Below, in pieces: positions 41,261 through 43,574 of a stretch of 64,000 nt of DNA; position 1 is the first letter of the stretch, and every line of letters begins with the position of its first letter. The translations under genes were made by a program, and so were the position numbers. The notes under the pieces were generated by a model that made no database searches, was not told the origin of the DNA, and was given only the letters and a program-made list of their open reading frames with translations. Source of the DNA: Bryobacterales bacterium (GTDB taxonomy: Bacteria; Acidobacteriota; Terriglobia; Bryobacterales; Bryobacteraceae); contig CANFEY010000014.1 of NCBI GenBank assembly GCA_947446025.1, positions 1 to 64,000 on the forward strand, written 5' to 3'.

Positions 41261-42613
41261 TTAGCCGCCCAACTCCACCCGGATCGCTTCGGCGATGCCG
41301 TGCGCCCAATGATCCACGCGGTCCTGCGTGGGACCTTCCACCATCACCCGTGCCAGCGGCTCGGTGCCGGAGAAGCGTACCAACACCCGGCCGGCGTCTT
41401 TGAGCTCGCCTTCCGCCTCCGCGATCAGCGCCTTCACTCCAACCAGTTCCTCCAGAGGACGCCGCTGCTTCACCCGCACGTTGACCAACAGCTGCGGGAA
41501 AATCTCCAGTTCCGCCGTCAGCGCATCCAGGTCCTTGCCGGACTCGCGCACAATCTGGCAGATACGCAGCGCCGTCAGCAGCCCGTCACCGGTCGTCGCG
41601 AACTCGCGGAAAATCACGTGCCCGCTCTGCTCCCCGCCCAGCGGTGCGTTGCGCTTGATCATCTCTTCCAGTACGTATTTATCGCCCACCGGCGTGCGCA
41701 CCATCTCAATGCCGTGCCGCGCCAGCGCGATCTTCAGGCCGATGTTCGACATCACCGTCGCGATCACTTCCTTGAGGCCCTGCGTCTTCTTCAGCCAAAT
41801 CCCTGCCAGCAGCAACACCGCATCGCCGTCGACCGTCTTGCCCGAACCCGAGACAAACATCGCGCGGTCCGCGTCCCCGTCGAACGCCACGCCCAAGTCC
41901 GCGCCCGTTTCCAGTACGCGCGCCCGCAACGATTCCAAATGTTGCGAGCCGCAGTGCAGATTGATGTTGCGCCCGTCCGGATGATTGTGGATGCAGTCCA
42001 CCGTCGCGCCCAGCCTTCCAAACAGTGCGGGAGCCAGGTGCGTCGCCGCGCCATTCCCCGGATCGACGACAATCCTGATTCCAGCCAGCCCCCCCGGCAG
42101 CGTATCCGCCAAGTGCTCCACATACGCATGGTCCAAGCCTTCATCCACGCTCAGCAGCATCGGCGAGGGCTGTTGATCCGAAGCCGCCCACTCAAAAACG
42201 TGCGCCTCCAGCAAATGCTCCTGTGCATCCGGCAGCTTGAAGCCGGAATGATCGAAAATCTTGACCCCGTTATCGTGGTACGGATTGTGTGACGCCGAAA
42301 TCATCACGCCCGCCGCAAACGGGCCTTTGGCCGCCACGTAGGCGAGCCCTGGAGTCGAGATCAATCCCGCGAACCGCGCCTTCACGCCGCCTTGCGCCAG
42401 TCCACCCGCAACATGCTCCGCGATCCACGGACCCGATTCGCGCGTGTCCATACCGATCACCACCTCCGGGTCATCCGGATTTGGGCCAACATGGTTTGTC
42501 CCAATCCACTTCGCCAACGCAACGCCGGCCGCGAACATGGTCGCCCGGTCCAGCGGATACTCGTCCGCCCGCCCCCGGATTCCATCGGTGCCAAATAACT
42601 TTCGTTCACTCAT
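41261..42613 (-). CDS. glmM: Phosphoglucosamine mutase
   Basis: GlmM (450 residues) interconverts glucosamine 6- and 1-phosphate for peptidoglycan and LPS precursors. The phospho-Ser loop is MISASHNPYHDNGVK (Ser108), the magnesium site is DGDADR, the sugar loop is GGEQSGH, and the phosphate-binding tail is VRFSGTEP. It follows cdaA with a tiny CdaR-like frame between. In many bacteria CdaR and GlmM both bind and restrain CdaA, so this order is meaningful. Confidence 0.97.
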   Translation of the reverse strand: MSERKLFGTDGIRGRADEYPLDRATMFAAGVALAKWIGTNHVGPNPDDPEVVIGMDTRESGPWIAEHVAGGLAQGGVKARFAGLISTPGLAYVAAKGPFAAGVMISASHNPYHDNGVKIFDHSGFKLPDAQEHLLEAHVFEWAASDQQPSPMLLSVDEGLDHAYVEHLADTLPGGLAGIRIVVDPGNGAATHLAPALFGRLGATVDCIHNHPDGRNINLHCGSQHLESLRARVLETGADLGVAFDGDADRAMFVSGSGKTVDGDAVLLLAGIWLKKTQGLKEVIATVMSNIGLKIALARHGIEMVRTPVGDKYVLEEMIKRNAPLGGEQSGHVIFREFATTGDGLLTALRICQIVRESGKDLDALTAELEIFPQLLVNVRVKQRRPLEELVGVKALIAEAEGELKDAGRVLVRFSGTEPLARVMVEGPTQDRVDHWAHGIAEAIRVELGG

Positions 42614-42618
42614 AGTGT

Positions 42619-42738
42619 TCAGACCAGATTATCGGCATAAATCAGCCACAGCCATAGCAGCGCCGCCACGCCCAGACAGAGCAGTTTCCACGCGAAATTG
42701 TGGGTAAATAGGCGCTGCACAGTACGGGGCACGGCCAC
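42619..42738 (-). CDS. 39-residue CdaR/YbbR-like membrane anchor remnant
   Basis: This short frame begins with GTG 2 bp after the cdaA stop and ends 5 bp before the glmM start. It reads VPRTVQRLFTHNFAWKLL followed by CLGVAALLWLWLIYADNLV. That is the classic YbbR/CdaR N-terminus: a short cytoplasmic segment 'F..N..lKllsL' and one membrane helix with LLWLW. The periplasmic YbbR domains that normally follow are absent; glmM starts at once. It is either a translated micro-regulator or a leftover. No ribosome binding site is obvious, but coupling to cdaA is possible. Confidence 0.6.
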   Translation of the reverse strand: MAVPRTVQRLFTHNFAWKLLCLGVAALLWLWLIYADNLV

Positions 42739-42740
42739 GA

Positions 42741-43574
42741 TTACGCGTTCCCCAATTGCGCCTGAGCCGCGTCCTCGCGCACCTGAGGCGTTCCCGCAGA
42801 ATGGTGCGAAAGCCGCTCGCGCAGCCGGTCCAGCCATACATCCGCTTCCAATTCCCCGCGCCATGCAATCGAGATCGCGCCCGTCTCCTCGGATACAACC
42901 ACAGCCAAGGCGTCCGTACCCTCCGTCACGCCGATCGCCGCCCGGTGCCGCGTGCCCATCTTGCGCAGGGCCATGCCGTGCGCGCCGGCCGGGTTGATAT
43001 GCAACGGCAGGAAACACGCCGCCGCCGCGATGCGGTCCCCTTGCAGGATCACCGCCCCGTCATGCAACTGCGCGCCCGGATGGAAAATTGCCAGCAGCAC
43101 ATCGCGCGAGACCACAGCATCCAAAGTGATGCCGCTCTCGATGAAGGTGCGCAGGCCGATATCCCGCTCCATCACAATCAGCGCGCCGACCCGTTTCTCC
43201 GCCATGTTCTCAACCGCGGAGAGGATTTCGTCCACGATCTCGCGCCGCTCCAGCCGGCCGCTTAGGCTGACGCGTCGCGCCCAGCGCACCCGTCCCAGCC
43301 GCGTGAGAAAACCCCGCAGTTCAGACTGGAACATCACGATCAAGGCGATGATGGCGTAGGGCGCCAGAGTTGCCAGCAGCGTCCGCAGCAGACGCATGCC
43401 CAGCCACCCCGCGGCCAGATACATCAGCACCAGCACGGCCATGCCGCTGAGCACGGACATCGCCCGCCGCCCGCGCAGCACCAGCACGAAGTTGTAGAGC
43501 AGCACCGCGACAACCACGATGTCGAGCACGGTGCGCACCGTGAGCATCGGATTGTCCGGCCAGGCAAAGGGCAT
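42741..43574 (-). CDS. cdaA: Diadenylate cyclase CdaA (c-di-AMP synthase)
   Basis: A 277-residue membrane enzyme that joins two ATP into c-di-AMP. Three N-terminal spans lie at about 15-33, 38-57 and 66-83. The DAC domain has the signature LHDGAVI (DGA at 172-174), and MGTRHRAAIGVTE (RHR at 209-211) contacts ATP. The C-terminal tail after 235 is charged. It is followed by the CdaR-like micro-frame and glmM, a compressed version of the cdaA-cdaR-glmM operon. Confidence 0.95.
   Translation of the reverse strand: MPFAWPDNPMLTVRTVLDIVVVAVLLYNFVLVLRGRRAMSVLSGMAVLVLMYLAAGWLGMRLLRTLLATLAPYAIIALIVMFQSELRGFLTRLGRVRWARRVSLSGRLERREIVDEILSAVENMAEKRVGALIVMERDIGLRTFIESGITLDAVVSRDVLLAIFHPGAQLHDGAVILQGDRIAAAACFLPLHINPAGAHGMALRKMGTRHRAAIGVTEGTDALAVVVSEETGAISIAWRGELEADVWLDRLRERLSHHSAGTPQVREDAAQAQLGNA

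Follow-up and report, generated by a model that had tools for sequence, protein, structure and literature searches.

A conserved 39-codon frame between cdaA and glmM in Bryobacterales encodes a predicted anchor-only form of CdaR

Introduction

Can CdaR, the protein encoded between cdaA and glmM, be cut down to its membrane anchor and still serve the diadenylate cyclase CdaA? The question is raised by a locus in the window, the whole 64,000-nucleotide stretch of a Bryobacterales contig (CANFEY010000014.1) that was analysed here, in which only a very short frame separates the two genes. A preliminary description of this DNA proposed that the frame either encodes a minimal intramembrane regulator or is an unused stretch that leaves CdaA free of CdaR.

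The literature on CdaR leaves room for such a form. CdaR is reported to bind CdaA through the transmembrane parts (PMC10243994, PMC6368335) and has been reported as both an activator and a repressor (PMC8573169); its mode of action on CdaA is described as unclear, with conflicting reports of activation and inhibition (PMC8573169, PMC5207132). The level of c-di-AMP is reported to be raised in a cdaR mutant of P. gingivalis (PMC9259658) and in S. aureus with an insertion in ybbR (PMC11520302); deletion of ybbR in S. aureus is reported to leave it unchanged when growth is standard (PMC5207132). B. subtilis CdaR is reported to raise c-di-AMP in E. coli (cited in PMC8316131), and one S. aureus study is reported to have reached no conclusive regulatory role for CdaR (PMC6368335). 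The assumption with which this locus was first described, that CdaR normally restrains CdaA via periplasmic YbbR domains, is stronger than these reports, in which the contact is transmembrane and the sign disputed (PMC10243994, PMC6368335, PMC8573169).

Results

Layout of the locus

On the minus strand of the window, cdaA (43574-42741, stop codon TAA) is followed by the short frame (42738-42619) and then by glmM (42613-41261). The cdaA product is a 277-aa membrane diadenylate cyclase (CdaA_N and DAC domains) that scores above the TIGR00159 cut-off and contains the DGA and GTRHR motifs; glmM encodes a 450-aa phosphoglucosamine mutase above the TIGR01455 cut-off. In an alignment with B. subtilis GlmM, the residues at D151, E154, and D195 appear, by eye, as E, D, and R in the window protein. 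The short frame comprises 39 codons and a TGA stop, its GTG start lies 2 nt past the cdaA stop codon, and it ends 5 nt ahead of the glmM ATG at 42613. Shine-Dalgarno-like pairing ahead of the short-frame start was estimated at -5.5 to -8.7 kcal/mol, which is unremarkable when compared to random 20-mers (median -4.4, 10% point -8.5 kcal/mol). The product, MAVPRTVQRLFTHNFAWKLLCLGVAALLWLWLIYADNLV, has a single hydrophobic stretch at residues 19-35 (LLCLGVAALLWLWLIYA; 42634-42684, minus strand), with a Kyte-Doolittle value of 2.34 over 17 aa, and the net charge is +3 before this helix and -1 after it, so that an N-in/C-out orientation would be expected from the charge distribution. No Rfam model matched within the window at gathering scores, and the c-di-AMP riboswitch (RF00379) was absent from each of six genomes of the genus that were searched.

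Conservation and selection

The genus sample comprised 23 genomes, 20 of which encode CdaA; the three without it are 65-82% complete. The cdaA-glmM interval was readable in 19 of the 20, with the remaining locus (L030/L089, genome G005) cut by a contig end. Three of the 19 readable loci, those of the window's genome (G000), G014, and G007, carry the anchor-only frame in intervals of 127-136 nt. The frames of the two other species (39 codons in L002, again as L031, and 38 codons in L003, again as L032) occupy the same place, so that the length is 38-39 codons in all three species, with the same aligned start position (GTG, GTG, and ATG in G000, G014, and G007, respectively) and the same cdaA-frame-glmM synteny. 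An assembly error is an unlikely source of this arrangement, as the layout is the same in three genomes, two of them from differently named MAG records. One of the deposited sequences (L031, CALQCC020000044.1) is titled Bordetella parapertussis, which seems to be a misnomer given to a metagenome bin: its cdaA shares 80% identity with the cdaA of the window, and the cdaA-glmM locus agrees with the one in G014.

Codon-level conservation among relatives had been put forward in the preliminary description as one way to check the proposal, and the frame proved to be kept in three species under purifying selection on its amino acids. The peptides share 27/39, 17/38, and 21/38 identical residues in the three pairs. 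Silent sites have diverged widely (pS 0.57-0.86; dS is 1.07 for one pair and too high to estimate for the other two), and pN/pS is 0.34-0.43. A maximum-likelihood codon fit to the three species gave an omega of 0.087 (LRT 34.1 against omega = 1, p = 5e-9), a rough value that is probably too low because silent change is high, although omega = 1 is still rejected under the model; the only estimable species pair gives a dN/dS of about 0.2. When five alternative frames over the same bases were treated identically, each contained a stop in at least one species and omega was at least 1 in four; the other, an antisense frame, also had a low value (omega 0.20, LRT 19.8), but the signal was weaker than that of the real frame. 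The peptide changes faster than its neighbours in the same pairs, with pN of 0.19-0.35 compared to 0.13-0.17 for CdaA and 0.08-0.12 for GlmM, and pN/pS of 0.36-0.40 compared to 0.19-0.26 for CdaA and 0.14-0.17 for GlmM. These comparisons draw on three sequences, the full set from which the conserved anchor-only form is known. A chance frame is rejected by its retention in three species together with the codon fit, and the proposal of an unused stretch that leaves CdaA free of CdaR is not favoured, given that omega = 1 is rejected. As judged from these sequences, the anchor-only CdaR is very probably translated.

Selection on a frame might also reflect a need for ribosomes to pass from cdaA to glmM, with the peptide itself inert. 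The short frame either overlaps cdaA by 4 nt or follows it by 2 nt, it ends 3-14 nt before the next ATG, and two of the three anchor-only species have no clear ribosome-binding site ahead of that ATG, all of which would suit a relic of translational coupling. We nevertheless consider this explanation unlikely: any open frame would suffice for coupling, yet omega = 1 is rejected and the K, W, and N residues of CdaR are kept (see below), and in genome G002 glmM lies past cdaA with no CdaR-like frame in between.

Descent from CdaR

To place the peptide, we aligned 30 CdaR N-termini of the family, including the three anchor-only forms; these rows, like the 13 longer-CdaR rows used below, were hand-picked from the loci at hand with near-duplicates excluded. 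All 30 rows have K18 and W29, at least 90% have N14, and the N-terminal membrane anchor of the 39-residue peptide is homologous to the CdaR anchor. A profile of the 30 anchors finds the window frame at E = 3e-14, a value that measures fit and not discovery because that frame is one of the 30 rows; the profile of 13 longer CdaRs, which does not include the frame, finds it at E = 1e-4. Across the family, the anchor profile matches 198 of 237 genomes (E <= 0.1), and DAC domains are found in 207 of the 237. Searches of the 39 residues against Pfam and NCBIfam gave no match at E <= 1.

We then asked what else of CdaR these genomes encode. The YbbR domain (PF07949) was not detected in the window's genome at E <= 0.001, and the same search returned nothing for G014 or G007. 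Because PF07949 can overlook a CdaR, as it did the short one of G020, a second search was made with the 13-CdaR profile, which gave no additional hit at E <= 1 in either G014 or G007 and a single one in G000 (E = 0.14) that was taken as chance. The preliminary description, whose range of 42613-43574 takes in the short frame plus cdaA, is upheld in what it observed: the classic cdaA-cdaR-glmM order is kept, with the TIGR00159 and TIGR01455 proteins flanking a gene on the same strand; that gene encodes a 39-residue, CdaR-like N-terminal segment with one helix; and the full-length ybbR elsewhere in the genome that would have told against it was not detected by either PF07949 or the 13-CdaR profile.

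The three anchor-only peptides also share a cysteine (Cys21) and a P-R pair at positions 4-5 that occur at those positions in none of the other 27 rows. Such clade-specific residues could mean that the peptide has become a small membrane protein with a new partner and no longer acts on CdaA, and a variety of membrane partners is reported for short proteins with a single helix (PMC10903887). This explanation is somewhat less probable than translational coupling, as the cdaA-cdaR-glmM order is retained and the residues common to the peptide and full CdaR are those of the CdaR membrane segment.

A series of shortened forms within the genus

The 19 readable loci of the genus fall into four CdaR states: full family length in 11 (intervals of 626-684 nt, CdaR of about 220 aa), one-domain length in four (406-447 nt, about 140 aa), anchor alone in three, and none in one. 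The "two-domain" (11) and "one-domain" (four) classes were assigned by length and alignment; PF07949 itself reports two domains in six and one in five of the former, and one domain in three of the latter with none in G020. One locus (L023) was assigned from its interval together with two YbbR hits. Another (L008/L090, G016) has a full-length cdaR with the frame broken after the first YbbR domain, either by a sequencing error or by a recent break, and was classed as full length from its interval. In G002 (L088, 94% complete), cdaA and glmM are 58 nt apart with no CdaR, and the 13-row profile gave no other CdaR hit in that genome. G002 is apparently a natural cdaR-null, and CdaR would therefore be dispensable in some species that keep CdaA.

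In a tree of CdaA plus GlmM from 29 genomes, the anchor-only clade has support of 100/100 and is joined to the one-domain clade (100/99) inside the two-domain relatives. The four CdaR states require three changes on this tree, the minimum possible, with the direction of change taken from the wider family and not from an inferred root. The G002 state is a separate loss. A path in which the second domain was lost before the first fits the tree and was perhaps the one taken; we infer this order, since separate losses from a two-domain ancestor cost equally many changes. A decaying gene, on its way to loss as in G002 and with a helix that persists for want of time, is the least probable of the three alternatives: the shortened forms, the complete loss, and the faster protein change relative to the neighbouring genes are in its favour, yet the frame is intact at 38-39 codons in all three species despite their silent divergence, and the three-species codon fit weakens it further.

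Distribution beyond the genus

Two additional family members show shortened forms. G134 (genus g42, locus L084) has a 47-aa anchor-only frame that spans a 129-nt cdaA-glmM interval, and G160 (genus g47) has a one-domain CdaR in a 376-nt interval. When both were added to the tree, the starred branches forced two origins each for the anchor-only and one-domain states, and a single clade of the four anchor-only genomes was rejected (p-AU 8e-14). The anchor-only frame of G134 arose independently; this independent case comes from a single genome, and that genome encodes a fused CdaA-CdaR at another place as well. Two such fusions were seen, each joining CdaA (membrane part plus DAC) to a CdaR anchor and one YbbR domain (L099, minus strand 629-1810, in G024; L100, minus strand 1458-2603, in G134), and both genomes have a separate cdaA-glmM locus as well.

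The anchor profile matched 179 of 399 genomes in a class-wide draw (E <= 0.1) and 203 of 396 in a phylum-wide draw (E <= 0.01). Among the best-scoring matches, which are those listed, inspection by eye showed open frames shorter than 129 aa (class) or 142 aa (phylum) in G014 and, for the class draw only, in G110, where a contig end cuts the frame. The window's genome appears in these draws as 146 aa with an internal stop, and because lengths run from stop to stop, an anchor-only frame could escape them if the sequence ahead of it stays open for long. Ten loci from outside the family were picked for short frames, and in nine of them the gene between cdaA and glmM encodes a CdaR of one-domain length, judged by a length of 133-155 residues from stop to stop (L110 was not counted). 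From the reported four YbbR domains in lactic acid bacteria (PMC10243994) to none here, the number of domains varies while the anchor stays. The family also includes a genus (g30, G084-G100) with 17 genomes listed as lacking a match in the DAC search and no member among the matches listed; the 14 of these genomes that appear in the anchor-profile listing also have no CdaR anchor match. The c-di-AMP synthesis module has apparently been lost in this genus.

Insertions in CdaA of the anchor-only clade

Alignment of the cyclases revealed two insertions in the anchor-only species. One comprises residues 99-101 of the window protein (43272-43280, minus strand), is five residues long in the two sister species, and lies in the linker that connects the last membrane helix to the DAC domain, and the other adds five residues, 199-203 (42966-42980, minus strand), to the loop before the GTRHR motif. 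Both are found in the three anchor-only species and in none of the 26 other CdaAs aligned. None of 12 further loci, G134 and G160 included, has the insertion before GTRHR, and the linker insertion is absent from G134 and G160, the two further loci with a readable linker. The independent anchor-only genome G134 thus has neither, and any link between the insertions and the loss of YbbR may be a coincidence because both insertions arose on one lineage. The solved CdaA structure 9g69 aligns without a gap to the longer linker of the window protein, indicating that linker length varies, and it lacks the insertion before GTRHR. In a predicted CdaA structure (23 sequences, mean pLDDT of 72.8), both insertions lie in or beside low-confidence loops, so the model is uninformative on their effect.

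The window's genome has a second, weak DAC-like frame on contig C98 (L101, plus strand 832-1872; PF02457 E = 7e-5) with DGAVV and GTRHRSA stretches. It is possibly another c-di-AMP enzyme or sensor.

Discussion

The results are consistent with the 42738-42619 frame being a real, translated anchor-only CdaR, and we regard it as the probable explanation that the product is an intramembrane partner of CdaA with no outside sensor. The gene between cdaA and glmM would have been shortened with loss of the extracytoplasmic YbbR domains, perhaps in two steps, and the 39-residue product would be inserted in the membrane N-in/C-out and packed against the CdaA membrane helices, as is reported for the transmembrane part of full CdaR. 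Because the part that was kept is the part that makes contact, we infer that the peptide may act as a constitutive intramembrane subunit that stabilizes CdaA or sets its activity in the absence of periplasmic input. The cyclase may in turn have been retuned by its two insertions; such retuning after YbbR loss has a precedent in S. aureus, where suppressors of a ybbR deletion are reported to include one that alters the third membrane helix of DacA (PMC5207132).

The pattern suggests that the work of CdaR is done by the anchor. Extended to CdaR in general, the proposal would be that the anchor alone is a self-sufficient cyclase partner, that the core role of CdaR is intramembrane with the YbbR domains (four to none) an add-on, and that a 39-residue CdaA subunit exists with matching changes in its cyclase; we consider the case for and against this broader proposal to be evenly balanced. 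In this clade the outside half of CdaR is gone and the inside half is under selection, so that the question of CdaR function splits in two and becomes testable: a 39-residue peptide gives access to the membrane contact, and close relatives that have more YbbR sequence, less of it, or none give access to the role of the YbbR part.

Our literature search, which covered titles and the openings of abstracts and had some key Listeria work outside its reach, found no report of an anchor-only CdaR. Within the same search, nothing joined CdaR, c-di-AMP, and Acidobacteria, nor CdaA, c-di-AMP, and a small membrane protein.

The predicted peptide can be compared to several known systems. Like CdaR (YbbR) of B. 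subtilis, L. monocytogenes, and S. aureus, it is encoded between cdaA and glmM and has a single N-terminal helix, whereas CdaR of Firmicutes carries extracytoplasmic YbbR domains, reported as three or four in lactic acid bacteria (PMC10243994), and the window peptide has none. It shares a homologous anchor and the same operon with the longer CdaRs found in Bryobacteraceae and elsewhere in the phylum, and those of its own genus are the nearest relatives of the anchor-only form on the tree; the longer proteins of the family and phylum, however, keep about 130-230 residues with YbbR sequence past the anchor, and the peptide does not. The CdaA-CdaR fusions, reported in some streptococci (PMC10243994) and seen here in G024 and G134, likewise represent CdaR rebuilt around CdaA, but they are joined and retain a YbbR domain, whereas the peptide is separate and lacks one. 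Finally, the peptide resembles CydX, AcrZ, and MgrB (PMC10903887) as a very short protein with one helix and a predicted role as partner of a membrane enzyme, those proteins being partners of a membrane enzyme, pump, or kinase; we claim no common ancestry with them, and the window peptide differs in its descent from a larger regulator.
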